Shown: positions 25,626-58,681 of the stretch, piece after piece
Numbering within the stretch: position 1 is the stretch's first letter
How the letters are laid out: every line of letters begins with the position of its first letter
Virus record (IMG/VR): IMGVR_UViG_3300036766_000678
Location: 1-64,000 of that record
Source of the DNA: a virus
DNA length: 64,000 bases
Direction: 5' to 3' (one strand)
The notes under the pieces: generated by a model
Seen by the model: only the letters and a program-made list of their open reading frames with translations
Told to the model about the DNA's origin: nothing
The model's database searches: none
Translations under genes and position numbers: made by a program

Positions 25626-25803
25626 TGTTATCTATCCTTTTGTCATATTCATTCTCTAAGTATTTCAAGTTATCGGGATTATAATTACTACATTCACAAG
25701 CCCAAACTGCACATGATTCACCTTCATGTTCCCATAAGTTAGGAACATGGTTGATTCTAGAATGGCCGCATTTACAGGGTACTTTAAGCTTGCTTTTTGT
25801 CAT
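25618..25803 (-). CDS. NLEYLE-family protein, 61 aa
   Basis: Head CKCGHSRINHVPN, CECSNY pair, then NPDNLKYLENEYDKRI. First of three consecutive members (25618, 25784, 26004) with 20-23 nt overlaps, clear evidence of tandem expansion. Confidence 0.78.
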   Translation of the reverse strand: MTKSKLKVPCKCGHSRINHVPNLWEHEGESCAVWACECSNYNPDNLKYLENEYDKRIDNNV

Positions 25804-26026
25804 ATAGGTATTCTAAATATTCAAGATTATCTTCTGGTATAAATTCTTTACAATCACACCCATGATCTGTTAAGGGGTCGCATTGTCCATTATTTGGCAA
25901 TAGTCTAACAGAAGCTCCAGTATTAAAATGATACATATAGAAATGACCACAAATACGACAACAATCTAGATCATCAGATGTAACTAAGTTTATACCAAAA
26001 ATCTTACCTATTTGTCCGTTTATCAT
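25784..26026 (-). CDS. NLEYLE-family protein, 80 aa
   Basis: Head CCRICGHFYMYHF, a later CDPLTDHGCDC cluster and PEDNLEYLEYLYDKK. It has about 28 residues before the head, longer than most. I chose the ATG at 26026 (MINGQ); another ATG lies at 26038. Overlaps both neighbouring members. Confidence 0.75.
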   Translation of the reverse strand: MINGQIGKIFGINLVTSDDLDCCRICGHFYMYHFNTGASVRLLPNNGQCDPLTDHGCDCKEFIPEDNLEYLEYLYDKKQA

Positions 26027-26183
26027 ATAAATATTCAATAATAGAAAGAGGATCTAAATTAAAATTCCAACACATTTCATTTACTGTAATAATTCTTTTC
26101 TCAGCTTTGTCTTTACAATCTAAACAACCTAAGCTACAATGTCTTTTACCCCAATGACTACACCTACAATATAAGTCAATCAT
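26004..26183 (-). CDS. Divergent NLEYLE-family protein, 59 aa
   Basis: Head CRCSHWGKRHCSLGCLDC is clear; the tail reads NLDPLSIIEYLYDKR, so only the second half of the signature (EYLYDKR) is intact. It shares EYLYDK with the members at 25784 and 28644. ATGA coupling with the upstream gene. Confidence 0.65.
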   Translation of the reverse strand: MIDLYCRCSHWGKRHCSLGCLDCKDKAEKRIITVNEMCWNFNLDPLSIIEYLYDKRTNR

Positions 26184-26560
26184 TTCTTCTTCTTCTTCTT
26201 TGGAGGATATACGGGCTCATTATTTGCGTCATGAAAACTAAAATTAAAAGCTTTAAGTATCTTATTGACCTTCTTATCCTTATACCCCACTGTTGCAAAA
26301 TAATAAGCTACCATGGAATAAAAAGCTTGATATTGATCCAACGGAACTTCAATAGCAGTATTATCTATTGTAACTATCTTTGTTTTCTTTTGCTGTGGAA
26401 TAGCTTCTGTAGGTTTAGCAGGTTCAACCATTTTCTTTCTATTAGCCATAATCGCTTCAAGAGGAGTAGTAAAATCTCCAATGTCACTAACCTCTTTAGT
26501 AATAGAAGCTAATATTTCAGGAGGAATGTGGCTGATTGCCTTTTTTTCAAAATCACTCAC
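26180..26560 (-). CDS. Hypothetical protein with poly-Lys tail, 126 aa
   Basis: Helical N-terminus, a Lys/Pro-rich linker and a compact C-terminal segment with aromatic residues (YQAFYSMVAYYFATVGYKD), ending in KKKKKK. The lysine tail could bind nucleic acid. Starts with ATGA overlap with an NLEYLE-family gene. No family known. Confidence 0.55.
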   Translation of the reverse strand: MSDFEKKAISHIPPEILASITKEVSDIGDFTTPLEAIMANRKKMVEPAKPTEAIPQQKKTKIVTIDNTAIEVPLDQYQAFYSMVAYYFATVGYKDKKVNKILKAFNFSFHDANNEPVYPPKKKKKK

Positions 26561-26772
26561 TTATTACTCCTTTCATAAAATTGTTCTAAATATTCTAAAT
26601 TATTGTATTTAAATTTATCGCAATGAATATTATAACTAGGAGGAAACCCATATCTTTTTCCTTGACATTCCCAACATCTTCCTTCCCATAATCCTGAAAC
26701 AGGATCTGAATAAACATGACTAGCTTTCATATGATTACAAATAAGACAAAGTGTACCTAAAGAAATCTTCAT
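26557..26772 (-). CDS. NLEYLE-family protein, 71 aa
   Basis: Head CLICNHMKASH (Gly of CGH replaced by Asn), then CWEC and a single Cys, and YNNLEYLEQFYERSNK. Overlaps both neighbours by 4 nt. Confidence 0.75.
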   Translation of the reverse strand: MKISLGTLCLICNHMKASHVYSDPVSGLWEGRCWECQGKRYGFPPSYNIHCDKFKYNNLEYLEQFYERSNK

Positions 26773-27230
26773 TTCTTATTAACGTCTATGCAATCCAATA
26801 TATCTGGGCAGACTTCAATAAGCTTCTCAAGTGTACTTATTGTCTTAGCAACAAGCTTACTAACAGGATCAGCCAAAAGTATTGCACAATCCGAGCAATC
26901 TATAGTTTCTTCATAATCTTTTGCATTTGGATCGACAAGGGCTCTCACTATCGGAAAGGATTCCATAGGTTGAAGAAGCTCAATTCGTCTATAGAGATAA
27001 AAGCCATCTACTGAATTTTTCTGATAGGGCAATTCTGGATAAAGGACGGGGTAGGGACATTCGACCGTGTACAAAAATTCCGAACCTACCGCAGCTATAG
27101 GATCGGCTATGCCAATCCCATTGTAATCTACTGGAGTAAACAAATCTCTCCTATCTCCTTCAGTATACACTTTAGGAGTTTTCATTTTCTTCAATAAAAG
27201 ACGAGCAAGATCATCTGAAAGGCGGAACAT
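26769..27230 (-). CDS. Hypothetical protein, 153 aa
   Basis: A soluble protein with a beta-rich middle rich in Pro and Tyr (YTVECPYPVLYPELPY) and a helical end with several cysteines (DCSDCAILL, VCPDILDC). No match recognised. One-base overlap with the membrane protein gene upstream. Confidence 0.55.
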   Translation of the reverse strand: MFRLSDDLARLLLKKMKTPKVYTEGDRRDLFTPVDYNGIGIADPIAAVGSEFLYTVECPYPVLYPELPYQKNSVDGFYLYRRIELLQPMESFPIVRALVDPNAKDYEETIDCSDCAILLADPVSKLVAKTISTLEKLIEVCPDILDCIDVNKK

Positions 27231-27481
27231 TATTTATCCTTATACCAAAAATACATAAATACAAAGGCAACGGTACAAAGTAATCCCCACGAATACCCCA
27301 AAAGTAAAGTGAGTTGATGAAGGTACAAACCATAGCCAATTCCACAACAATATGCAACAACCTGAATAAGCCAAGACCAAATAGATATATCTCCTACACT
27401 CTTACGCTTATAGCTTCTAATAAGTTGAGGAAAATAAGTCAATCCAAATAGTACACATGCAAGAATTCCAAAAATCATCAA
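27230..27481 (-). CDS. PQ-loop/SemiSWEET-like membrane protein, 83 aa
   Basis: Three transmembrane helices in 83 residues with LTYFPQLIRSYKRKSVGDIS in the first loop: the Pro-Gln pair and the following S-x-G-D/S-x-S are the PQ-loop hallmark. This matches SemiSWEET half-transporters, which pair up to move sugars such as sucrose. Occurrence on a phage is unusual and suggests altered carbon uptake or export in the infected cell (inference). The start overlaps the HNH gene by 4 nt. Confidence 0.7.
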   Translation of the reverse strand: MMIFGILACVLFGLTYFPQLIRSYKRKSVGDISIWSWLIQVVAYCCGIGYGLYLHQLTLLLGYSWGLLCTVAFVFMYFWYKDK

Positions 27482-28038
27482 TCTTCCTTATCTATTTTGT
27501 TTATAATAATCTGTTTAAGTTTCATTGCCCTATCCTTCGTAGCCTGTGCTTTCTTTTTGGTTAGAAATTTACTTACCTGCTTCTTAAGTTCTTTCTCTTC
27601 ATCTAAAGTCCAAGCACTCTTTAATCTTTCTTCAATTTGATCAAGAACTAATTTATCTTTTAAAGTTTGTCTTTTTGACCGTTCTTCTTGAGTTTTCTTG
27701 TTATGGCAATCGTCACAAATTCTCTGCAAGTTTGTTTTAGGGCAGAATAAACGCCTTTTAAATTCGTTCCAGTCCTGCACCTTTCCAGATACATTTTCTA
27801 CGTCGATAACAGGCACTACATGATCTACTGAAACCAACTTGGCTGGAGTCCATTGTAGACACACCTGACATGAGTACTCTACAGCATCTACTTTATGTCT
27901 AGATCCATCCTTGGTATAACGAGGAACGGTCCTACGGCCTTCAGCTAATACTTCTCTTACTATTGGACTTCTGGAGAATATTCTTCGCCAAGCAGAACGT
28001 AAAGCTGAGTCCTCATTCCAAGTTGGTTTTTTAGACAT
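27478..28038 (-). CDS. HNH endonuclease, 186 aa
   Basis: CQVCLQWTPAKLVSVDHVVPV, then NLQRICDDCHNKKT, gives the H-N-H core with a zinc-binding CxxC on each side. The start has an Arg-rich segment (SAWRRIFSRSPIVREVL) and the end is a basic helix. It could be a packaging-related or free-standing HNH nuclease. Located between the PQ-loop gene and the SbcC C-half gene, with ATGA-type overlaps on both sides. Confidence 0.75.
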   Translation of the reverse strand: MSKKPTWNEDSALRSAWRRIFSRSPIVREVLAEGRRTVPRYTKDGSRHKVDAVEYSCQVCLQWTPAKLVSVDHVVPVIDVENVSGKVQDWNEFKRRLFCPKTNLQRICDDCHNKKTQEERSKRQTLKDKLVLDQIEERLKSAWTLDEEKELKKQVSKFLTKKKAQATKDRAMKLKQIIINKIDKED

Positions 28039-28669
28039 TGATCTTCTCTTCTACTTTTGAAGTACTACCAATCTTAGTAACCTCAAAAACCTTTGACGAA
28101 TTTCTCGTGATTGTTTCACTATGTGACACGAGTATTAGTTGTAAGTTCAATTTCTTACATAATAGCTTTATAAACTCTGCGACTTTCTCTTGATCTTTCA
28201 CTGATACATGCTTAAAAACCTCATCGGCCACGATTATTCTGCTCAGGGAAGGAGCCCACTTAACAAGCAAACTTACACGAAGGGCAAAAGATATAATGTC
28301 ACAAATTCCTCCACCAAGGGAGTCGATTACATCAAACTCAGCTTGTAACTGTTTATCATACACAACCATCTTCAAGTCTGCGGCGTTACGTTCCGTGGAC
28401 AAATTCATTCTAAACTCAAGGTTCTTATCTTTAACTACTTGAAGTGCTTCCGTTACAATTCCACTAATCTTGTCTAAGACATTTATCCTTGTAATATCCG
28501 ATAGGCTTTGCAAAAAGAGACTTGTCTTAGTTGAAAGATCTTCCTTTCGTTCCAGCTCATTGATCTGACCTTGGCATACATTTAATCGGCTGCAGAAGGC
28601 TTGTAGCATTCCTTGTTTTTGATCAAATGAACTTTTAAGACTATTAAATTGTTGAGTGAGATTTGTCAT
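28031..28669 (-). CDS. SbcC/Rad50 C-terminal half
   Basis: About 100 residues of coiled coil are followed by the ABC signature (DSLGGGICDIISFALRVSLL), Walker B (RIIVADEVF) and the switch His (LILVSHSE). There is no Walker A. This is the C-terminal lobe of a Rad50/SbcC ATPase; the N-terminal lobe is at 32852-33970, with SbcD at 29759-30661 between. The two halves would meet to form the ATPase head. Alternatively this lobe pairs with another protein. Confidence 0.78.
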   Translation of the reverse strand: MTNLTQQFNSLKSSFDQKQGMLQAFCSRLNVCQGQINELERKEDLSTKTSLFLQSLSDITRINVLDKISGIVTEALQVVKDKNLEFRMNLSTERNAADLKMVVYDKQLQAEFDVIDSLGGGICDIISFALRVSLLVKWAPSLSRIIVADEVFKHVSVKDQEKVAEFIKLLCKKLNLQLILVSHSETITRNSSKVFEVTKIGSTSKVEEKINV

Positions 28670-28862
28670 ATAAATATTCTAGTAATTCAAGATTACCACG
28701 AGGTTCATAATTAGAACATCCTTCTTTAAGAGGCTGTAATAAAAATCTAGTACAAAATACACATGTAGGATCTACAATATCTTCACTATACCATCTGTGA
28801 GTACAATCACAATTTTTGCACAAATATTTTCTATATACTGCACTAGCATACATTGTTGTCAT
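28644..28862 (-). CDS. NLEYLE-family protein, 72 aa
   Basis: Head CKNCDCTHRW, CVFC pair, a later Cys, and PRGNLELLEYLYDKSHS. The tail Tyr at NLEYLE is Leu here. It overlaps the SbcC C-half gene by 26 nt. A longer N-terminus (MTTMYASAVYRKYL) precedes the head. Confidence 0.7.
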   Translation of the reverse strand: MTTMYASAVYRKYLCKNCDCTHRWYSEDIVDPTCVFCTRFLLQPLKEGCSNYEPRGNLELLEYLYDKSHSTI

Positions 28863-28866
28863 AATC

Positions 28867-29121
28867 TTAAATTTTAGAAATCTCTTCTAGTATGCCATTT
28901 ATCTTAGTCTCTAGCTCAGTCATTTCTAATTGCAAAGTAGCTTCTTCATTTGCCAACGTTTCTTCGATCTTATCCGATTGTAACCCCAATTGATTACATT
29001 CTTCTAATAGCTTTGTCTTTTCATGTTCTAACATACTAAGTTTAGTTGAATTTTCTACTTTTAATCGGCCCAATTGTTCACCTTTACTCTTTAAATCTAA
29101 TAATTGTTGTTCTAAGTTCAT
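28867..29121 (-). CDS. Coiled-coil protein, 84 aa, possible Rad50 coil fragment
   Basis: Heptad-repeat coiled coil from end to end (LEQQLLDLKSKGEQLGRL..., LQLEMTELETKINGILEE). It has no other domain. It lies between the SbcC halves, upstream of the C-half, and could be a third fragment of the split coil; this is inference. Overlaps the next gene by 4 nt. Confidence 0.55.
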   Translation of the reverse strand: MNLEQQLLDLKSKGEQLGRLKVENSTKLSMLEHEKTKLLEECNQLGLQSDKIEETLANEEATLQLEMTELETKINGILEEISKI

Positions 29122-29309
29122 ATTTTTCTCCTATAATAACAATATTCTAAGTATTCTAAATTAGGTAACTGTCTGTAAAAGTAACAACCATAAATTTTAC
29201 AAATAGAACAAACTGAATCGCTTGTTGGCCAACATTCTCCAGAAGGTTCTTGTTTACCAGAACAGCGATCTGTATGTTTATCTTTTGAATGCTTACATTT
29301 ACAAATCAT
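29118..29309 (-). CDS. NLEYLE-family protein, 63 aa
   Basis: Head CKCKHSKDKHTDRC, CSIC, one further Cys, and LPNLEYLEYCYYRRK. Overlaps the next upstream member by 4 nt (ATGA), the first of a three-gene tandem (29118, 29306, 29557). Confidence 0.75.
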   Translation of the reverse strand: MICKCKHSKDKHTDRCSGKQEPSGECWPTSDSVCSICKIYGCYFYRQLPNLEYLEYCYYRRKI

Positions 29310-29560
29310 TTCTTTTTAGCCTCATATAACTCTTCCAAGTATCTCAAATTATCCATCTTGCATGACTCACAATCACATTCACTGCATCTCCACTCATCTT
29401 GGGAACCATCAGTTAAAAACTTTGTCCAAAATTTTTCTCTATCTTGTAAACTATTTTCTTTATATCCTTCTAATTGTTTATCTAACCTATCCCAAGACTT
29501 TTTATTCATCTTAGTATGCTGTCTACTAGAATGGCCACAAATACAAATAAATTCTTTCAT
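29306..29560 (-). CDS. NLEYLE-family protein, 84 aa
   Basis: Head CICGHSSRQHTKMN, then a long helical insert, a CSECDCESC cluster directly before the tail, and MDNLRYLEELYEAKKK. The Cys-rich cluster next to the tail is unique to this copy. ATGA overlap on both sides. Confidence 0.75.
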   Translation of the reverse strand: MKEFICICGHSSRQHTKMNKKSWDRLDKQLEGYKENSLQDREKFWTKFLTDGSQDEWRCSECDCESCKMDNLRYLEELYEAKKK

Positions 29561-29739
29561 TTCAAATTCTTCTCATATTTCATTTCCAAGTAATCGAGAT
29601 TATCCATAGGAACATAGTAGGGAGTACTTTTAAAAAAATGATACCATTTTTCATTTCGACAATACGGTGGTAGAAATAACAAAGATAAATTATTATGTTT
29701 GTCAAATGGCTGCTTACACCATTTGCAAAAAGCATTCAA
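29557..29739 (-). CDS. NLEYLE-family protein, 60 aa
   Basis: Head CKWCKQPFDKH, one later Cys, and YYVPMDNLDYLEMKYEK. Closest to the member at 15737-15946 (shared FxxH...PMxNLxYLEMxYE). Follows the SbcD gene by 19 nt. Confidence 0.72.
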   Translation of the reverse strand: MNAFCKWCKQPFDKHNNLSLLFLPPYCRNEKWYHFFKSTPYYVPMDNLDYLEMKYEKNLK

Positions 29740-29758
29740 TTTTTAGCTTCCCCATATG

Positions 29759-30661
29759 TCATTTCAACACTTCCTTCGCTTTTTCTATATGAGTAAGTGC
29801 CTCTTTAATTATATCAGGTGAAACAGCTTGTTTCAATCCCGCTTGCTTAACAACTTCTACTAGATCAAATTCGGTAAATTGTGTATTCTCTAATGAATTA
29901 ACAAAGTTATTTAGTTCCATTTCTCTTTCCCTCTCTTCAGTAACTGCTTCTAAATTCCATTGTGCTAACGAAGCTGATTTAAGAAGAACAGGAGTAACGG
30001 ATAACGGATTAGTTTCTATAATTAAAACTTGGGGAATTCTACGTCTACTGTCTATACTCCATCTTGCAATGGAACCTGGGTTATGAAATTTTCCGTAATC
30101 GAAAGGACTATGCCAATGCCCAAGAAGAAATAAATCGGCATCTGTTTCGACATCTTTTGGGTGCAAATATTGAAAAGGTAAACTTTCAATGGCTATGAGG
30201 TATTGATGAGCTACAGCAACCTTGAAATAATCTCTATACTGCTCTTCAAACATATATGATTTAGGTATTTCCAACGAAGTGTGGTAGCCTTTTATAACAA
30301 GTTTATTTTTCTCATCTACAAGAGTATCAAGCTTATTTACAAGACCAGCTTCTATAAGATTGCCTAAACCACTATTATCTACAGTTTCATGATTGTATCC
30401 AAGAAGCCCATGATTGCCCAAGAGCGTATAGATAGGAGCTAGGGAATTTTTTAAATGTTTCATTAGATCTGTAATAAGTTGATGAGATACTTTTTGTTTA
30501 TCTAGAAAGTCACCACCATGAATTAAAATATCCACTTTGTTATCTTTGCCGATCTGAAGGATTTCTTCTAGTTCGACAAATTGGGTCCTGTACCAATCGT
30601 CGATCCGCCATTTCGGTGGGCTAGAACGCATGTGAGTATCTGTCAGATAAAGAATTTTCAT
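29759..30661 (-). CDS. SbcD/Mre11-like nuclease
   Basis: A calcineurin-fold phosphoesterase of 300 aa with all five metal motifs: DTH at residues 8-10, GGDFLD, GNHG, a later VAHQ and GHWHSP near residue 177. The C-terminal part is helical, as in SbcD partners of SbcC. It is flanked by both SbcC halves, so a SbcCD-type end-processing nuclease is very likely. Role: trimming hairpins or breaks during replication and recombination. Confidence 0.85.
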   Translation of the reverse strand: MKILYLTDTHMRSSPPKWRIDDWYRTQFVELEEILQIGKDNKVDILIHGGDFLDKQKVSHQLITDLMKHLKNSLAPIYTLLGNHGLLGYNHETVDNSGLGNLIEAGLVNKLDTLVDEKNKLVIKGYHTSLEIPKSYMFEEQYRDYFKVAVAHQYLIAIESLPFQYLHPKDVETDADLFLLGHWHSPFDYGKFHNPGSIARWSIDSRRRIPQVLIIETNPLSVTPVLLKSASLAQWNLEAVTEEREREMELNNFVNSLENTQFTEFDLVEVVKQAGLKQAVSPDIIKEALTHIEKAKEVLK

Positions 30662-31956
30662 TTATCAATCCATCCCATTTGACGAAAAGACCAATAGGCG
30701 CACAAAAAATCAACCCCAAAGAAAGCTTGTGACGGTGTAGTATTCCCAATATAATCATCTACAGAATAGGGTCGTCTTTGGTATCTAAATTCCTGAGCCC
30801 CACTCCACCAAAGCGGCAACGGCTGTGTAGAAACTATATCACCTTTTAGAAAAGGCAGTGGTGTATATTTCTTTAATTCGATCCCCAAATTCTCTAATTC
30901 ATCAGTTTTAGTAGAATTAACCTTTTGAACATTATTCAAATCTTCCACATAAAATTCATTCAACAATGTAACGCAAGGTTGTAAATCTTTTTTAATATCA
31001 AAATGCTTTCCACATAAATAAGCTACCCAAGCATTGCCCTTATTTTTGTTTAATTTCCAAATACGTTTCAGACCCTTTATATATTCAGTATTATAAACAT
31101 CTAGATCAGCTAAAATAGAAAGATGAATAGCCGCTCTATGATCGTCATTCAAATTATTAAAAGTTAAAAAGAAAACTTTTGGATATTTGTATAACCCCGC
31201 ACTACCATAAATCTCTTTAATATTCCAATATTCTTCCAAGTATTTATTATCTTCTGTAATAGTAGAGGCGGTTAATAAAATTGCCATGCAAAGAGTTAAT
31301 TGTAATGGATCAGTTTTCCATCCATTAATAAGCTGCCCATAAGTTGTGGGATTACCATCTGCCCCAATCAAACAATAATTATGATTTAAAAGTTCATCAG
31401 CCAATCCTCGAATTAAAACTTCTGCCTTTTGTTTGATATCGGCATCTCCATATTTCCAAGCATAATAAATCCCCAACAAATGCCCAGTAGCCCCGTCATT
31501 AGAAACATCGTCTATAAAAGTATTTTTAGGATCTAACGGATCTTGCACCCCACGAATCAAACGTCTAATGGATTCTCCATGGGCTGTTTGATGAAGATCC
31601 AGTCCTATCATTCCCCGTCTAATTTTTTCCAAATCATTAAAATCTTTAGTAACAGAATATTTAATGGCCCACATTGCAATAGTAATTCCTGTCCAGATCG
31701 CTTCATCTCCCACATCATCAAAATTAATTCCCCAACTTATTGTAGAGTCATATACAAGTCCATCGTGATAAAATTGCTGGAGATTATTTTCGAATTTGAC
31801 TGCTTTATCCTCTAATGATTCTGAATATTTAAGAATCATAGGACGAGCAAACTTATCAAATGGATTCCAAATACTATTAATAGTATCAGCCAAACATATC
31901 AAAATAACTTTTACAACATTTGTTAAAAAAATAATTGGGTGGTTAAAAATTATCAT
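30658..31956 (-). CDS. Large hypothetical protein, alpha-barrel-like, 432 aa
   Basis: An N-terminal hydrophobic segment (IIFLTNVVKVILICLADTI) precedes a large helical body rich in Trp, Tyr and Asp: GDEAIWTGITIAMW, GLDLHQTAHGES, DDVSNDGATGHLLGIYYAW. The pattern of paired helices and conserved Trp/Asp resembles six-hairpin (alpha/alpha)6 glycosidase-like folds, but I cannot name the family. It sits inside the SbcCD operon between sbcD-like and SLOG genes, an odd place for a surface enzyme. Overlaps both neighbours by 4 nt. Confidence 0.6.
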   Translation of the reverse strand: MIIFNHPIIFLTNVVKVILICLADTINSIWNPFDKFARPMILKYSESLEDKAVKFENNLQQFYHDGLVYDSTISWGINFDDVGDEAIWTGITIAMWAIKYSVTKDFNDLEKIRRGMIGLDLHQTAHGESIRRLIRGVQDPLDPKNTFIDDVSNDGATGHLLGIYYAWKYGDADIKQKAEVLIRGLADELLNHNYCLIGADGNPTTYGQLINGWKTDPLQLTLCMAILLTASTITEDNKYLEEYWNIKEIYGSAGLYKYPKVFFLTFNNLNDDHRAAIHLSILADLDVYNTEYIKGLKRIWKLNKNKGNAWVAYLCGKHFDIKKDLQPCVTLLNEFYVEDLNNVQKVNSTKTDELENLGIELKKYTPLPFLKGDIVSTQPLPLWWSGAQEFRYQRRPYSVDDYIGNTTPSQAFFGVDFLCAYWSFRQMGWIDK

Positions 31957-32312
31957 TTCTTTTCCTCTTTCTTAACCAAATGGATGTATATTTTCAAATT
32001 TTTGGCAGTAGCTTTTTCAATCATACTAGCCGACCCTCTTGATTTTCCATCCCAACAAATTATAAGAGCATCTGCATTATCAGCCATAATACCGTTTCGT
32101 ATTGGTCCCGCTGCTTTGCTATAAATTTTCCAATCTGGAAGAAACACTTTAATAGGTATTCCATTCTTATTGGCCCAGTCTATTCCTAATTGATCTACTC
32201 CCGAAGCTCCACCTGAAATAACCAAATTAACTTGAAAACCACTATCTTTAATAGCTTTCTCAAGCTCTAATGGATCTGTAATTGTTCTACTTCCAGCTAT
32301 TATTACACGCAT
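31953..32312 (-). CDS. SLOG-family (YspA/DUF2493-like) protein
   Basis: MRVIIAGSRTITDPLELEKAI and VISGGASGVDQLGIDWANKNGIP are typical of the SLOG superfamily (DUF2493/YspA-type), which binds nucleotide-like ligands through GSR and GGxxGxD motifs. The late IICWDGKSRGSASMIEKA fits too. The ATG at 32312 (MRVI) is preferred; another lies at 32324. Function in phages unknown; SLOG proteins may process NAD- or nucleotide-derived signals. Confidence 0.75.
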   Translation of the reverse strand: MRVIIAGSRTITDPLELEKAIKDSGFQVNLVISGGASGVDQLGIDWANKNGIPIKVFLPDWKIYSKAAGPIRNGIMADNADALIICWDGKSRGSASMIEKATAKNLKIYIHLVKKEEKK

Positions 32313-32493
32313 ATTTCCACTCAAGATATTCTAAGTTATCTTCTGAAACATACCCAAGACAACGGCATTCATCCCATGAATTTGTTACTTGGACTAAACA
32401 TCCACGTTCTTCATAACTATCTATAAGAGCCCAATTTTTTAAATGGGCAAACTTATGATGACCGCATGTTCTACATCTTCCCTGCTTATCCAT
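32287..32493 (-). CDS. NLEYLE-family protein, 68 aa
   Basis: Head CRTCGHHKFAHLKN, a later Cys and CRC pair, and SEDNLEYLEWKYACNN. Tail WKY matches the member at 60702-60941. It overlaps the SLOG gene. Confidence 0.75.
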   Translation of the reverse strand: MDKQGRCRTCGHHKFAHLKNWALIDSYEERGCLVQVTNSWDECRCLGYVSEDNLEYLEWKYACNNSWK

Positions 32494-32505
32494 TATTGAA
32501 AAGGC

Positions 32506-32658
32506 TCATTTATCTAACTCCATCATTTGTGCGTATAATTGTATTGCCATTTCTCTCGGGTATCTTTTTGCGGCAAGTTCTTGAGAGACATTTCCAGCGG
32601 ATTGCCATAGAGCATCTAAAATTGCATTAATGGCATAGGATTCTTTTATATCATTCAT
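32506..32658 (-). CDS. Hypothetical helical protein, 50 aa
   Basis: MNDIKESYAINAILDALWQ... reads as two helices. It overlaps its upstream neighbour by 4 nt. The 12 bp to the next gene hold nothing. Unknown. Confidence 0.5.
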   Translation of the reverse strand: MNDIKESYAINAILDALWQSAGNVSQELAAKRYPREMAIQLYAQMMELDK

Positions 32659-32852
32659 ACATTCATCTTTTCCAGCACTTCAACTACCATATATTCTTTT
32701 CTTGCTAATTCTAAATGCTTATAACAATAAATTCCATAACCGTTACCTTCTGCATCAGTTAACTCCCGAACAGCCAAATTATCACAAAGATAGCCTGAAG
32801 GCAACCTATAGAAACATAAACCATTTTTCTTTGTGTGCCATTTAGTACACAT
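32655..32852 (-). CDS. Hypothetical protein with Cys, 65 aa
   Basis: Several cysteines (CTKWH, LCFYR, LCDNLA, IYCYKH) and histidines may bind zinc; the end is a charged helix. It starts at the last base of the SbcC N-half gene, a 1-nt overlap, so the two are co-translated. Confidence 0.55.
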   Translation of the reverse strand: MCTKWHTKKNGLCFYRLPSGYLCDNLAVRELTDAEGNGYGIYCYKHLELARKEYMVVEVLEKMNV

Positions 32853-33970
32853 TAAATATTTACCCCTATTGTACTTCGATTACAAATTGGACACACTCCT
32901 GCTACTTTAAGCATATCAGAATATTGCTTTGAAGTCTCTTGATATTTTTGCTCTACTTGTCCCAACTCATCAGTCTTACTTACAAGTTCATTTTGATTTT
33001 TAGCAATTCTACTAGCTAGATCTAGTAAAATCTTGTTATGTCCAACTTTCTGGACCATAACAGGTATAACGTCCAAAGAAATGGACGTTAAGAGTTCTTG
33101 GAGCTTAGTTTGCTTATCAAATGTTAGATTAAACTCTGAAATTCTACTGCATAATTTGCGAAAGGTATCAATTTTTGATACTTTTTGCAAAAGAGACTCA
33201 ATATTACCTACCTCAACTTTGGTTAAAACAGCTTCTTTAGCCGTTTCTTGCTGCCACGATGCCTTCCAACCATTAACTCGCTCAAATAGGCTTCTGATTG
33301 CGTTTAATCGGCCTTCCTGAACACTAAGAGAAGCCAATCTAGCCTCTATTTCCTGTACCAACAAGGCAAACTGCTCAATTTGAGCAAGTTTATCTACCTG
33401 ACCTTGTAATTCCACTAGCTCTTTCTCTTTAATTACCTTTTCAGTTGAATAACTACGCCCCTCACGATTTATTTCTCGAATTGCAGAATCTAAAATGTGG
33501 GCACCTGAAAGCTTACCAAAGACTTTCGCCTTGTAACTATTTGATTGGCTTAAGAGAAAGAGATTTTCAAGCTGAGACGACAGATTCAGATTAATGGAAT
33601 CTTTAGAATCTATTTGTACTTCATGTATTCTTAAAGCTTTTTGAACAGCCTCTGGAACCCCTACCCCGAAATTCTCGAATGTCTGGGGTTGGGCACCAGG
33701 AAGAGTAAGAATATATTTATTAACCTTATCCCCTTTCTGACGCTCAACAATAATTCCTGTATCTGTTTCGATTATAATACGGGCAAACTTACAACCACTT
33801 CTCACCCAAGACTTATCAAAATTTCCAAATAATACACAAGACAAAGCTCTGCTAACAGACGATTTTCCTACATTAGAAACACCTACAATAGTTGACAGAT
33901 GGGGAGAAAATTCAAATACTGAATTTTCGTGGGATTGGAAGTTCTCCAACTTTAAAGTCTTTATATACAT
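32852..33970 (-). CDS. SbcC/Rad50 N-terminal half, ends at zinc hook
   Basis: MYIKTLKLENFQSHEN and Walker A VGVSNVGKSS are the N-terminal ATPase lobe; a Q-loop follows, then about 230 residues of coiled coil. The last residues, VCPICNRS, are the CxxC zinc hook at which Rad50 dimers join, and the protein stops only nine residues after it. The returning coil and signature/Walker B are separate at 28031-28669. Therefore a split Rad50, unlike the single-chain SbcC of bacteria and T4 gp46. Confidence 0.82.
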   Translation of the reverse strand: MYIKTLKLENFQSHENSVFEFSPHLSTIVGVSNVGKSSVSRALSCVLFGNFDKSWVRSGCKFARIIIETDTGIIVERQKGDKVNKYILTLPGAQPQTFENFGVGVPEAVQKALRIHEVQIDSKDSINLNLSSQLENLFLLSQSNSYKAKVFGKLSGAHILDSAIREINREGRSYSTEKVIKEKELVELQGQVDKLAQIEQFALLVQEIEARLASLSVQEGRLNAIRSLFERVNGWKASWQQETAKEAVLTKVEVGNIESLLQKVSKIDTFRKLCSRISEFNLTFDKQTKLQELLTSISLDVIPVMVQKVGHNKILLDLASRIAKNQNELVSKTDELGQVEQKYQETSKQYSDMLKVAGVCPICNRSTIGVNI

Positions 33971-36197: not shown

Positions 36198-38669
36198 TTA
36201 ATCGTCAAAATCAGGACAAATATCATCTAGTCTATTTCCTAATGGGGAAAAAGTTCCTGTAGGATTGAATCCCGTAATTTTATTAAAATCTTTTCCTTTA
36301 ACTGCTTTTACAGCTTGCTTAAAATGACTTTCTGTAAGAAGAAGCTTGTTATTAGCATCGTAAGCCTTTTCATCTATAGCATAGATAACTGCTAAATTAC
36401 AAAGTTCCCGTACTTGTGCTCCCGTCATTTTTTCAGATTCTTTACCAGCGACTTCATTTAAAAAGGGAAGTGCCTCATCAACTAATCCATTGCTAAATAC
36501 CTTTAGCATTTGTAATCGTTCATTTTTATTTGGCAAAGGAAAATCAACCACTTTATCAAAACGCCCAGGCCGATTTAGAAGAGCTGTCTCTAATACTTCT
36601 TTATTATTAGTAGTAGCGATTGTAATAATATCAGTATTTTCTTGAACTCCATCGAGTTGATTCATCATTTCCCCCAACAAAGCAGGATTATGATTAGTTG
36701 CCCTATCCCCGCCGTAAAGGTCTATATCTTCGAGTAGCATAATAGTAGGTGAAAGATCTTTGCATAATTGAACAATTTGTGCAATCTTTCTAGCCCCACC
36801 TTCCAAATGTTTTGGTGTCACCCAAACAAGAGTCCACTGCACTTGATTACACAATACCTTTGCCAACATCGACTTACCAGTATTATGATGTATTGTAAAA
36901 TCTCCTGTGAGATATAAATGATCTTTAGGCAAAGCAAAACCATAATAAGAATCAATCGAAAGCTTTTCTATACCAAACCCAACACGACGAACATCCTTGT
37001 TCATTATTCGTTTTATACATTTTTTACGTTTTAATAATACAGGAACTTTATACACATCCCCAAAAATACTAATTCTAAAATATTCTCCTTCAAAATACTT
37101 ATGATCTCTAATATAACAACCTTTAGTACATAATTTTTTGGAGGCAGAAAAACCTAAAGATCGACATAAGTAAACAATATTATCTGCTAAGTCTTCAGAT
37201 TTTGTAATGTAATCGAAAGATTTACCTCTACCTCGTCTACTAGCAACTCCACCAGTTTTATCTGCATATCCATCAGTATCAATTAAACCTGCGAGTAATT
37301 CCAATCTATCTTTTTCATTAGAAGTTAAATACTCAAATGGAATATGTTTATTATTTAATACATTTAGATTTTTAAGTTTATCAAGAAATTTATTCTCATT
37401 ATAACCTGTATGGCCATTAGTCAATCTAACAGTTATACTTTTATTATTTCCACCTTTATATGCAATCGAATACCCCAATCCTAATTTTTTTCCATAGTTA
37501 ATCCAAGCATCAAAAATAGGTTGATCCATGGTAGTCAACGCTGTTTCTTTAGATGTACCATCTCCAAGCCAAAGACCTAAAATATATGGTGGAATAGATA
37601 AATCTTTTTTGGAAAAAGTAATGCCTGTTCTTACTAATTTTAACCTATTTCTAACAGAAGGTTTTATTGTTAAAAAATCTTTTACAGTTATATTCATTGG
37701 AAATTGGAAATTCATTTCTTTACCAGAAAATTCTAAATGTAAAATATGATGCCCATTCACTACAAAAGATTCCCCTTTATTGGGAATAATCTTATACATA
37801 GTTTCTTGGCCATTAGCTAATTGCAATACTTCTCTACTTGTACTATCTGGTCCCATCAATAAATCCCCAACCTTAACATCTTCAACATTCTTAGTTGTTC
37901 CATCATACATAAGAATCTTAGTACCTTTTGCATGGCATCCTGGCTGACCACTTAAAATTAATCCACGCTTAACTTGCAAACCATTCTTACGGTAAATTTC
38001 CCTTGACTCAATAAGATTCAAAAGATTTGTTCTAATATCATCTTTAATTTTCTCAGGCAAGATAAGATCTGACCAGTCATATTTTTTGTCAAATTTAATA
38101 AAATTACAATGAGGATCAATTTTCTTACCCCGTAAAAAGTTATGCTCTTCTCCATATTTCTTCATCTCTTCTAAAAAAGCATTAGCGTCTGGAACAGAAT
38201 CTTTTCTACTTGCAAATTTAAATTTGTAGTCATCTCTATAACCTTCAGATAACCCAATAATATACCTTACCTTATCATTCGAAATGAAATAATGACCATA
38301 TCCTAATCTACTAACTTTTTCTGTTTCTGATATTTCAATACTACTAAAAGAGGGAGCATATTCCCCGTCACTCTCAATTCCAATAACTCGATCAATATTT
38401 AAACCTTTGCTTTTTATAAAATCTGGAAGTATATATCTAAAAACAAGAGAATTTGCGAGAGGACATGTAAAATCTGCAAAAACAACATCATCAAGTGAAT
38501 CTGCCTGAAGAAATCTTTTAAAAGAGCCCATTTGATAGTCATTATTCCAACGGGATTCCTTAAGGGCCTCAACGTAATTTTTTGCGGTCATATTTTGAGA
38601 AAGTATGGGCGGTATATTATCAAAAGATGATTGCTCTTGGTGTTTAGGTGGTTTGGGGTGATTTGACAT
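36198..38669 (-). CDS. AAA+ ATPase interrupted by an intein
   Basis: The 823-residue precursor joins after splicing into a 471-residue ATPase. The N-terminal 230 residues are not recognised. The P-loop is GQPG|TGKS, split at the bar. After it come Walker B MLLEDIDLYGG, sensor ATTNN, arginine finger NRPGRFD and a helical lid, an arrangement like FtsH, proteasomal ATPase or BCS1-type AAA+ proteins. BCS1-like is plausible from the layout. It acts as a remodelling ATPase with unknown target; splicing is required for ATP binding. The next gene downstream is a homing endonuclease (34777-36192). Confidence 0.82.
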   Translation of the reverse strand: MSNHPKPPKHQEQSSFDNIPPILSQNMTAKNYVEALKESRWNNDYQMGSFKRFLQADSLDDVVFADFTCPLANSLVFRYILPDFIKSKGLNIDRVIGIESDGEYAPSFSSIEISETEKVSRLGYGHYFISNDKVRYIIGLSEGYRDDYKFKFASRKDSVPDANAFLEEMKKYGEEHNFLRGKKIDPHCNFIKFDKKYDWSDLILPEKIKDDIRTNLLNLIESREIYRKNGLQVKRGLILSGQPGCHAKGTKILMYDGTTKNVEDVKVGDLLMGPDSTSREVLQLANGQETMYKIIPNKGESFVVNGHHILHLEFSGKEMNFQFPMNITVKDFLTIKPSVRNRLKLVRTGITFSKKDLSIPPYILGLWLGDGTSKETALTTMDQPIFDAWINYGKKLGLGYSIAYKGGNNKSITVRLTNGHTGYNENKFLDKLKNLNVLNNKHIPFEYLTSNEKDRLELLAGLIDTDGYADKTGGVASRRGRGKSFDYITKSEDLADNIVYLCRSLGFSASKKLCTKGCYIRDHKYFEGEYFRISIFGDVYKVPVLLKRKKCIKRIMNKDVRRVGFGIEKLSIDSYYGFALPKDHLYLTGDFTIHHNTGKSMLAKVLCNQVQWTLVWVTPKHLEGGARKIAQIVQLCKDLSPTIMLLEDIDLYGGDRATNHNPALLGEMMNQLDGVQENTDIITIATTNNKEVLETALLNRPGRFDKVVDFPLPNKNERLQMLKVFSNGLVDEALPFLNEVAGKESEKMTGAQVRELCNLAVIYAIDEKAYDANNKLLLTESHFKQAVKAVKGKDFNKITGFNPTGTFSPLGNRLDDICPDFDD
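36882..37937 (-). mobile_element. Intein in AAA+ ATPase Walker A motif (352 aa)
   Basis: It begins CHAKGTKILMYDG (Cys 245 of the precursor) after GQPG and ends FTIHHN before TGKS, with the conserved block of Cys at the start and His-Asn at the end; the first C-extein residue is Thr. The middle holds a LAGLIDADG endonuclease with YILGLWLGDG and LLAGLIDTDG. Removal restores the motif GQPGTGKS. Confidence 0.9.
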
Positions 38670-52211: not shown

Positions 52212-54326
52212 TTATTCGCTATCGTATTTCAATAAAAAATTTGGATTTATGGCCTTGAACGAGAGCCTTCCGTATAGCTCTTCTTCATATTCCTCAACTA
52301 ACGGGCGCAACACAATTCCTTCTCTATGAATATCTTTATTCAATAAACTTTTCCCCTTTGAAAATTCTACAAGTTCATCAACGGTTTTAGGTAAAAGAAA
52401 ATCTTCTGAAATAATTGGCACAGTTTCTAATCCTAATAATTTGGCTACCTTTATAAATTCATCATAACATAAATATTGCCTCTTGTCAATATCAAATATA
52501 TTAAAAAGTTTTAGGGTTAGCCCAGATAACTTGTATTTGTTGCCCTGACAACCCATGCCAATCAACTCACCCTGCAATCCAAGATTATACCCATATAACT
52601 TTAATTTGCTTTCAAGATCTAATTCTCTAGCCACTTTCCAATATGCATTTCCATCTGTCTCTTTTAGTTCTAAATTCCTTGAACAAACCCCAAACGTATT
52701 GTTATTCAGATAAACTGTCATAGAAGAGTTATGAACCAAAATACCATTAGCGATATAATTATGAGTAGTAGTTTCTAGATCATATCCAACTTTACCACAA
52801 ACAAACTTTTCATTACTTATATTTTTAATTTTTAAAACTTTAGAAGTAAAAGGTAATAATATTTCAGATCCACCTACAATCGGCTTATATTGTTCTTTTC
52901 TGTATTCCTCTGGAAGTTTATATCGCATACAAGGTACTATATAGGGTGAAATTGCTTTCCAAAAATTATTTAAAGATCCTTTCTTCCATAAAATATTTAT
53001 CTCCCAACCTTTATTATAATAAATAGAACAAGATACACCATACATTTCTTCTAATTTTTTTGCCAATCTTTCAACATCACTATTATTAAAGCCATTAGTA
53101 GAAAATCGTGCTCTATCATGCTGACCAAGATATTGCGAATTGTGTATTAAAGAACCATCATCCATATACCATTTAGCTACTGAGAAATCATCTATCCAGG
53201 AAAGATCTTGCGGTACAATCTTTTTTCCTTTAGGATACCATTTCTTTCGTAATTCATGCAGAGCATGATATGCTTTGGAATGAAAATTCATAACCTCACT
53301 ATTAAACTCGGTTACATGAATTGCTCTATTACCATAACAATTACCAAGTAACCTAATTATTTCCTCAGAATATTCAATATGTTCAGTTTTATGATTTTCA
53401 GTATATCTGCAACTTTCACTTCGTTTATCCATTACAAGACACCCATCCCCCAATAATCCTGATTCTATCGTATGAAAAGCTGTTAGATCAGGAGAAGTAG
53501 CATATGAAATTAAATTATCACCAATTCTTACTTTTTCTGCTAAAATTTCTCCTTGTTCCGTAAATATATTATGGTTTGGGGTAACTTTAAGAGTCCATAC
53601 TTTCTTACCTGCTCGTTTATAATGCGGGGGAGTATATCTTATTTCTAACCATTTTTCTTTTCTACCATTATTAAATCTTTTTATGACTTGTGTAGGAACT
53701 AAATTTCCCTGTTTATCCATACCAATTAAAGTAGGGTAAAGCTTCTTATTTACAATATCACCAATAGTACAATGTTTACCATCCCAAGTAGGTAGATATG
53801 TCTTATAACTAAAACAACCATCTAATTTTTCTGTAACATAAAAAGACTTTCCTCGATGCTTATCAAGTAACTGTGGAAAAGAATTTATTCTTTGTTCATC
53901 ACTTTTAAACATAAATTCAGGAAAAGAGCCTTTAGAAATTCCAGCTAACTGGGCTGGTATTTGAACTTCCCATTTTTGGATTTGGAGACATTCAGTAATG
54001 TTATCTCCTTCCTTAATTAACTCGACCATTTCAAGATGTTCCAGAGTATTTGTAAAAACAGACAGCGGAAGACACAAACCTTGACTAATCTGCTTCTTGA
54101 ATCGACGAGTTTTTACTCTATACCCACTATCCTTAAGAAGCTTAAAAGTTTCTGTTTGTGGGGTTACACTATCGACCTCAAGAAACACTACCAGATCTCC
54201 AACTTTAAATTCTCCCTTACCCACAACACAGTGCCAACCAAGGATTGTGGCTCGTTCAATACGATCCGCACCCTCTATAGGACTTATATCTAAAATGCGC
54301 TGAACTGACGCAAGTTTACGTTCCAT
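52212..54326 (-). CDS. RNA ligase, DRB0094/Rnl5-like, interrupted by an intein
   Basis: A 704-residue precursor; after splicing a 341-residue ligase. The N-terminal 120 residues (MERKLASVQRILDISPIEGADRIE, VGDLVVFLEVDS, YRVKTRRFKKQISQGLCLPL) match the OB domain of the TIGR02306/DRB0094 family. Motif I is EKLDG with Lys167, split after Gly170. After the intein come SMTVYL, NLGLQGELIG and EGIVLRP, covering motifs III-V. This family seals RNA strands on a template. May repair tRNA cleaved by host defence (inference). Confidence 0.87.
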   Translation of the reverse strand: MERKLASVQRILDISPIEGADRIERATILGWHCVVGKGEFKVGDLVVFLEVDSVTPQTETFKLLKDSGYRVKTRRFKKQISQGLCLPLSVFTNTLEHLEMVELIKEGDNITECLQIQKWEVQIPAQLAGISKGSFPEFMFKSDEQRINSFPQLLDKHRGKSFYVTEKLDGCFSYKTYLPTWDGKHCTIGDIVNKKLYPTLIGMDKQGNLVPTQVIKRFNNGRKEKWLEIRYTPPHYKRAGKKVWTLKVTPNHNIFTEQGEILAEKVRIGDNLISYATSPDLTAFHTIESGLLGDGCLVMDKRSESCRYTENHKTEHIEYSEEIIRLLGNCYGNRAIHVTEFNSEVMNFHSKAYHALHELRKKWYPKGKKIVPQDLSWIDDFSVAKWYMDDGSLIHNSQYLGQHDRARFSTNGFNNSDVERLAKKLEEMYGVSCSIYYNKGWEINILWKKGSLNNFWKAISPYIVPCMRYKLPEEYRKEQYKPIVGGSEILLPFTSKVLKIKNISNEKFVCGKVGYDLETTTHNYIANGILVHNSSMTVYLNNNTFGVCSRNLELKETDGNAYWKVARELDLESKLKLYGYNLGLQGELIGMGCQGNKYKLSGLTLKLFNIFDIDKRQYLCYDEFIKVAKLLGLETVPIISEDFLLPKTVDELVEFSKGKSLLNKDIHREGIVLRPLVEEYEEELYGRLSFKAINPNFLLKYDSE
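52728..53816 (-). mobile_element. Intein in RNA ligase motif I (363 aa)
   Basis: Starts CFSYKTYLPTWDGKHCTIGD (Cys171) directly after KLDG and ends YIANGILVHN before SSMTVYL; first C-extein residue Ser. LAGLIDADG signatures are SGLLGDGCLV and WYMDDGSL. Removal joins KLDG to SSMTV, which restores ligase motif I. Terminal His-Asn and the initial Cys are intact. Confidence 0.9.
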
Positions 54327-57117: not shown

Positions 57118-57512
57118 TACTCTTCCTTCTTACCTTTCAAATCCCATTCCTTATACACACTTATGTACCCAACCCACATATGGGAAATTGGCTGATCAGA
57201 AGGTTCCATAACATTTCTATATTCAACTCCAAAAGTAATAGGTGCAATAAATGTTTTATTTCTTATCCCCATGGACATATTTTCAATATTAGCTATGTCT
57301 ATTTGTTGGAACTTAGAAAAAGATAAATAAGGTTCAATCCATGGTGCCCCAACAAAACGTACTCCTTGAGTAATATCCATAGACATATTAAAATTATCTG
57401 CATTAGACACCCTATCAAATCTCCCATCCATACTGCCTTTCATATCAAGAATATCCAATGGGCCAGCAAATAAAGGGGAAGTTAGAAATAATAGCAATAA
57501 TAATTTTTTCAT
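57117..57512 (-). CDS. Exported outer-membrane barrel-like protein, 131 aa
   Basis: Signal peptide MKKLLLLLFLTSPLFAGP (cleavage near LFA-GP), then repeated short strands (MSMDITQGVRFVGAPWIEPYLSFSKF, KTFIAPITFGVEYRN). Similar in kind to 40183-40530. It could act in the outer membrane beside the ZIP and MFS transporters. Not a known porin family. Confidence 0.55.
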   Translation of the reverse strand: MKKLLLLLFLTSPLFAGPLDILDMKGSMDGRFDRVSNADNFNMSMDITQGVRFVGAPWIEPYLSFSKFQQIDIANIENMSMGIRNKTFIAPITFGVEYRNVMEPSDQPISHMWVGYISVYKEWDLKGKKEE

Positions 57513-58681
57513 TTATGGTTCTCCTCATATTTCATTTCCAAAAAAGGAATAAACAATAAACATAACAAGGTAGCTATACCTGAAACAACCACTAATCCAT
57601 TATAACCTAAATATTTAAATAAGGCTCCTCCAGCTAATTTGCTGCAAAAAGTTCCAAAATTTACAACACTACAAAGAAGTGCAAAAGTCGTAGCTTCAGT
57701 TCCATCTGGACAAGCTCTTGCCATGTAATCCAATAAAATTAATTGGATAAATGATCCACTTACACCAAACAATAGAGTGTACCATAAAACTGTGCTTCGT
57801 GTCAAGTACAAATATGCAAACGTACTAATTGCACTCAAGAGAGTTCCCCATATAAGCCATTTTTTGATATTTATACCTTTCGAAAATTTAAAATATAAGA
57901 GGGCCCCCATCAAACTGCATACGGCCCCAATTGTCTCCAGCCATCCAATCCAAATTTTACTGAAATGAAGTCCATTTCTCATTTTATCCATAAGAGGTGT
58001 TCCAATAGAAGGACTAAACCATAAACAGAATAAAAAAAGTGCTGATAGTAAGAACTGCCTTCTAGATAAAGCTTTTAACCAGCTTCCTAGGCCCAAGGAC
58101 GACTTTTTAGATTCGGCCTTGGGTTCAGGATACCTAAATGCAAAATAGCTTATTAGAAGAGGAAAAATAGCTATGATCAAATATGCTGTCTTATAATTAT
58201 AATGTTGGGCAATATATCCACCAGAAATTCCAGTTAAAATTTGAGCTGTGTAAAGGGCTCCCCATTGAATTGACTGGAATCTACCAGTTTCATTTAGTTC
58301 CTTTCCACGTTCAACCATAATTCCATCTATACAAACATCATCAAAAGCTCCTCCTAATGATTCAAGTACAATAAGACTCATAAGTAAAGGCAAGGAGAGA
58401 ATTGGAGAAATACCAATAAAAAATAAAATACCCACACTAATTATACAACTTAGAATTATATAGGATTTTCTTTTGTAAGAAAAAAGAGGAAACGAATCAC
58501 TAATCCAGCCATATACTGGCTTCACCATCCAAGGAAGTGTACTTAATGAACCAAGCCACATTATTGTGGGAACTGAAAGCCCAAGATTCTCACGAAGATA
58601 AAAATATAGGGGTTGTGAAGCCAAATTATTTATACCCTGATTAAAGTAAGTAAGTGCAAATAATATATAAAGAATATTCAT
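57509..58681 (-). CDS. MFS transporter, BT1/folate-biopterin type, 390 aa
   Basis: About 12 membrane helices. The start (QGINNLASQPLYFYLRENLGLSV, MVKPVYGWISDSFPLFSYKRKSY) with the signature-like loop GWISDSFPLFGYRR is the BT1 family, which carries folate or pterin-like substrates in other organisms; DDVCIDGIMVERGKE is another common part. The presence on a phage is unusual. Folate fits thymidylate synthesis, but substrate is unproven. Confidence 0.8.
   Translation of the reverse strand: MNILYILFALTYFNQGINNLASQPLYFYLRENLGLSVPTIMWLGSLSTLPWMVKPVYGWISDSFPLFSYKRKSYIILSCIISVGILFFIGISPILSLPLLMSLIVLESLGGAFDDVCIDGIMVERGKELNETGRFQSIQWGALYTAQILTGISGGYIAQHYNYKTAYLIIAIFPLLISYFAFRYPEPKAESKKSSLGLGSWLKALSRRQFLLSALFLFCLWFSPSIGTPLMDKMRNGLHFSKIWIGWLETIGAVCSLMGALLYFKFSKGINIKKWLIWGTLLSAISTFAYLYLTRSTVLWYTLLFGVSGSFIQLILLDYMARACPDGTEATTFALLCSVVNFGTFCSKLAGGALFKYLGYNGLVVVSGIATLLCLLFIPFLEMKYEENHK

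Follow-up and report, generated by a model that had tools for sequence, protein, structure and literature searches.

The closest described relatives of the locus analyzed here are the SbcCD and Mre11-Rad50 complexes (bacterial SbcC, archaeal and eukaryotic Rad50, and T4 gp46/gp47; PHROG 77 and 100). An unusual connectivity of the same complex has been described in the Mre11-Rad50 fusions of Mimivirus R555 and its relatives (PMC3175470), and Rad50 heads have been crystallized with their N- and C-chains separate (PDB 1f2t, 1ii8, and 3qkr), in laboratory constructs devoid of the hook and of most of the coil. Here, we describe a locus in viral DNA of 64,000 nucleotides (positions 1 to 64,000 of the IMG/VR record IMGVR_UViG_3300036766_000678), and refer to this whole stretch as the window. 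The locus has the same lobes, CPxC hook, coils, and SbcD/Mre11 nuclease as the known complexes. Judging from its sequence, we estimate a probability of about 0.87 that it encodes an SbcCD (Mre11-Rad50) complex in which SbcC is made as three polypeptides, namely an N-half, a small coiled coil, and a C-half. Unlike in the known complexes, the hook lies at a chain terminus, the coil is short, a dedicated small coiled coil is present, and the signature of the ATP-binding cassette (ABC) in the C-half reads GGG instead of LSGGE. Whereas the Mimivirus-type fusions join whole proteins, the phage loci considered here divide SbcC itself, and its lobes would assemble from separate chains as those of the crystallized heads do. 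No description of a split SbcC/Rad50 was found in the open-access literature, and papers beyond it could have one. The genes and motifs of the locus in the window are as follows.

32852..33970, minus strand: SbcC N-half, 372 amino acids, with a Rad50-type N-lobe, a broken coil, and a terminal zinc hook (Pfam, PHROG, family profile, and fold)
33860..33883, minus strand: Walker A motif GVSNVGKS, N-half residues 30-37 (G30, G35, and K36 invariant in 39 diverse N-halves)
32882..32893, minus strand: zinc-hook motif CPIC, N-half residues 360-363, with the stop nine residues later (C360 and C363 invariant in the same 39)
29759..30661, minus strand: SbcD/Mre11-type metallophosphoesterase, 300 amino acids (Metallophos, 6e-13; phrog_100, 5e-8)
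28867..29121, minus strand: small coiled coil, 84 amino acids, probable third part of SbcC (held-out profile, E = 4.5e-8)
28031..28669, minus strand: SbcC C-half, 212 amino acids, with a short coil followed by a Rad50-type C-lobe (phrog_15167, 5e-25; family profile)
28307..28321, minus strand: ABC signature region SLGGG, C-half residues 117-121 (conserved residues)
28220..28237, minus strand: Walker B motif IIVADE, C-half residues 145-150 (D149 and E150 invariant)
28121..28123, minus strand: switch (H-loop) histidine H183 of the C-half (invariant in 5 diverse C-halves)

The initial annotation of the window had placed an N-half with a Walker A motif at 32852-33970, ending nine residues past CPIC, and a C-terminal part with coil, signature, Walker B, and switch histidine at 28031-28669, with SbcD between them. 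These coordinates and motifs were all recovered, including SLGGG, IIVADE, and H183 in the C-half and the Metallophos match at 30661-29759. The coil of the N-half, put there at about 230 residues, is nearer 200, as the modeled helices lie between residues 157 and 357. The two half-genes are 4 kb apart. With regard to a full-length SbcC elsewhere in the genome, no second Rad50-type N- or C-lobe was found in the 180,416-base record, the completeness of which is not stated.

The split is family-wide and not peculiar to the window phage. N-half scans of public viral contigs returned 149 relatives with three N-half queries and 355 with short-type N-half queries; C-half scans returned 149 viral places and 29 places in bacterial genomes, and the latter, found with a query from one clade, include Bacillota (Moorella, Brevibacillus, and Paenibacillus among them). 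The locus collection drew on at most 80 places per scan and yielded 270 loci, which were reduced to 197 distinct loci. All four genes were present together in 151 of these 197, so the same split, which had been proposed as something to look for in related phages, is indeed widespread. Written with N for the N-half, D for SbcD, S for the small coil, and C for the C-half, the gene orders were N-D-S-C (103 loci), N-S-C-D (32), D-N-S-C (15), and one odd order. Complete N-halves with CxxC where it would be expected numbered 174; in 172 of them, the stop comes 2-24 residues past the hook (median, eight). Three open reading frames (ORFs) were left outside this count: the N-half ends of loci L107 and L047 have altered cysteine spacing (CPFYNVIC and CPIFDIPC), with two cysteines still near the stop, and the third is a short fragment that does carry CPVC. 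The hook reads CPLC, CPVC, or CPTC in most loci, and CPxC in most of the 146 full sets. No ORF matching both the N- and the C-half was found among the 270 loci. Chance neighborhood of the genes was considered and rejected, given the recurrence of the hook-proximal ending in 172 of 174 relatives.

We also considered whether an originally intact SbcC was broken up by inserted genes, such as homing endonucleases and NLEYLE genes, with the halves left as products of its decay. The 4-kb separation in the window, with unrelated genes between the parts, would fit such a history, as would the AP2-domain gene that Bacillus phage vB_BboS-125 has between its parts and the HNH gene that follows the C-half in the window. 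However, the catalytic and hook residues are intact, very diverse phages share the split, in 151 four-gene loci, and the genes for the small coil and the C-half overlap or almost touch in many loci in an operon-like manner. Decay is therefore highly improbable. The functional assembly that the initial annotation had favored gains support from these intact four-gene loci, from the co-variation of the parts, whose distance matrices correlate (r = 0.85-0.94), and from two phages in which the parts are scattered.

The identity of each part was examined by sequence and fold. The N-half of the window matches Pfam AAA_23 at 8e-10 and phrog_16465 at 7e-37, and its Q-loop residue is Q133. Walker A residues, Q133, and both hook cysteines are invariant across the 39 diverse N-halves, which puts the hook cysteines on a par with the Walker A lysine. 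In the C-half, S117, G119, and G120 are invariant with the relatives L006 and L007, and G119 and G120 are kept in the 5 diverse C-halves; in SbcD, the metal-site residues D8, H10, D51, H84, H152, and H184 are invariant in seven relatives. Family profiles built from the window protein and a few relatives gave, as the best matches among solved structures, an archaeal Rad50 N-lobe for the N-half (4.5e-9) and Rad50 C-lobes for the C-half (archaeal 3qkr_B, 1.4e-9). The model of the window N-half (mean predicted local distance difference test score, 85) has a Rad50-like lobe followed by broken helices (157-195, 198-249, 254-296, and 313-357) and then the hook, and its nearest solved structures include Mre11-Rad50 (3av0_B), Smc6, and 1f2u_A, the separate N-chain of a Rad50 head. 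As a modeling device, a three-part pseudo-chain of the relative L088 was made by reading through the stops; the segments for the N-half, the C-half, and the small coil (with helices at 731-766 and 771-803) were all predicted with confidence, and a fold search with it returned Rad50 as the first match.

SMC and RecF folds were also matched by the N-half, and the genes lie apart in some phages, so one might suppose that the N-half is an SMC-like or RecF-like protein working on its own while the C-half partners another ATPase. This is very unlikely, because the ATP-site motifs of each half are absent from the other, each whole record that was checked for the two halves has both, and each half matches Rad50 best. 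A member of the SMC, RecF, or RecN families would find its best match there and lack the hook, whereas here Rad50 scores best and the hook motif is present. What characterizes SbcC/Rad50 was found in the parts, namely an N-lobe with Walker A and Q-loop, a C-lobe with signature, Walker B, and switch histidine, and CxxC at the distal end of the outgoing coil; the single chain running from N-lobe through coil, hook, and return coil to C-lobe was not. We therefore describe the system as a split variant of SbcC/Rad50. The same three families are listed in PHROGs as 16465 (exonuclease; N-half), 15167 (ATPase; C-half), and 18563 (unknown function; small coil), unconnected and with no statement that they belong to one shared SbcC.

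Isolated phages carry the same parts. In vB_BboS-125, the set consists of gp32, gp34, gp35, and an unannotated SbcD, with a 471-residue N-half ending at CPLC, a 78-residue coil, and a 211-residue C-half; it differs from the locus in the window in its longer N-coil and in the AP2-domain gene between N-half and coil, and neither SbcC nor a split is mentioned in the paper on this genome (PMC6375668). Microcystis phage Mvi-JY20 has four overlapping genes in the order N-half, SbcD, small coil, and C-half, all annotated as hypothetical. In Microbacterium phage Magritte (133-kb genome), by contrast, the N-half lies at 93.8 kb, SbcD at 119.7 kb, the small coil at 127.2 kb, and the C-half at 0.3 kb. 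In Tunturiibacter phage Tunturi_5 (circular, 309 kb), the minus strand carries SbcD and an N-half of 485 residues, with nine residues after its CGKC, near 124-128 kb, and the plus strand carries the C-half at 19 kb, so that the halves are about 107 kb apart. Because the parts are tens of kilobases apart in these two complete genomes of cultured phages, they must meet in trans. Their joint retention in genomes where they are not neighbors, each without half of an ATP site, is best explained if they form one complex. These arrangements also bear on whether the parts are joined after transcription, by an intron, frameshift, or read-through, or after translation, by an intein. Intein-like inserts do occur elsewhere in the window, but 103 loci have SbcD between the parts, the halves of Tunturi_5 are on opposite strands, and the N-halves stop a few residues past the hook with no intein sequence. 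We regard such joining as extremely improbable.

The small coiled coil at 28867 had been suggested as a possible third part of SbcC. Almost every locus has, upstream of the C-half, an ORF of about 80 residues, which often overlaps the C-half gene by a few bases and is predicted from the secondary structure of a relative to encode a two-helix protein. The seeds for its profile were chosen by eye among coil-rich neighbors of the C-half. A profile from half of the loci recovered 33 of 35 held-out copies below E = 1e-3, and no other ORF fell below this value in the two-fold cross-validation, which indicates that the copies form one specific family but does not bear on how the neighbors were chosen. 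The window copy has no direct PHROG match, and its membership in PHROG 18563 follows from the held-out profile built from the loci. In locus L053, one 771-residue ORF contains SbcD, the N-lobe, the coil, a CPLCG hook, and a coiled segment, and the C-half is the next ORF; the small coil thus appears to be fused behind the hook to SbcD and the N-half, and SbcD is joined to the N-half as in the Mimivirus-type fusions. This specific syntenic family and the apparent fusion support the suggestion, and the small coil is probably the third part of SbcC.

Several observations weigh against a three-part SbcC. The segment after the hook in L053 matches the small coil at E = 0.009 only. The predicted template modeling score of the L088 pseudo-chain was only 0.41 with stops read through, so the packing of the parts is not settled by the model. 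The Pfam zinc-hook model matches only 6 of the 39 N-halves, and weakly. The N-half of Magritte (gp155; L272, 4501-5553) lacks the hook cysteines while the small coil and the C-half are still in the genome, and no small coil was found in the Tunturi_5 genome. Correlated distances are also expected from shared phage descent. Finally, the hook position varies from residue 291 to 638, whereas the small coil and the C-half are nearly constant in length, which makes a length-matched return coil impossible for the long forms. This lack of scaling, the missing copy in Tunturi_5, and the break between the two predicted helices would suit a regulator that binds the assembled halves, or a mere linked neighbor, better than a part of the stalk. 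Such a role is possible but on balance unlikely, since the gene almost always keeps its place upstream of the C-half, often overlapping it, and co-varies with the N- and C-halves, and a similar coiled segment stands behind the hook in L053.

In the proposed three-part complex, Walker A, the Q-loop, and the outgoing coil with the zinc hook at its tip would come from the N-half, and the C-half would add a short returning coil, the signature, Walker B, and the switch histidine. Neither half alone can make an ATP site, so the N- and C-lobes would have to pair into one Rad50-like head, as we infer from the known mechanism of ABC ATPases and from structures of Rad50 heads in which the lobes are separate chains. 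Two heads would dimerize on ATP with an SbcD dimer bound near the base of the coils, and two N-half termini may share one zinc ion and thereby link the arms. The small two-helix protein would most likely pack on the stalk, probably along the N-coil, between the hook and the short helix of the C-half and stand in for part of the return coil; because the N-coil varies in length while the other two parts are nearly constant, any surplus N-coil would need to pair with itself. The complex would function in processing DNA ends and hairpins during phage replication and recombination. A more speculative and rather doubtful extension is a modular Mre11-Rad50 in which, with the hook at a free terminus and a separate small subunit as return strand, the arm could open or exchange without breakage of a peptide bond and so act as a reversible clamp on DNA ends, which is impossible for a single-chain Rad50.

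A standing question is how far the action of Rad50 depends on a coil that runs out to the hook and back to the head as one unbroken chain. A family in which this chain is naturally cut at the hook, with part of the return path seemingly a separate small subunit, offers a ready experimental system, in which parts of 84 to 372 residues could be omitted, shortened, or swapped singly. In addition, many phage genes now labeled hypothetical, exonuclease, or ATPase could be named as parts of one complex.

Other genes of the region were also noted. An HNH endonuclease gene (27478-28038) overlaps the end of the C-half, and similar genes follow the C-half in L006 and L007. The 432-residue protein of unknown function mentioned in the initial annotation (30658-31956) lies between SbcD and a SLOG-family gene; it has no Pfam match and a PHROG match at chance level only. 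The five NLEYLE-family genes noted there were likewise found. This family consists of small cysteine-rich proteins ending in NLEYLExxY (window positions 25784-29739 and 32287-32493), and the 180-kb record has about 40 of them (E < 1e-3), grouped in small clusters and without exception encoded on the minus strand, a striking expansion of a zinc-finger-like family of small proteins. Five related ORFs are carried by L006. By eye, an AAA ATPase gene (36198-38669) has an intein-like insertion within Walker A (SGQPGC...HHNTGKS), and an RNA-ligase-like gene (52212-54326) has an apparent intein-like insertion (GCFSYKTYLPTWDGKHC ... HNSSMT). A 390-residue protein at 57509-58681 resembles, again by eye, a major-facilitator transporter, which is unusual for a phage.
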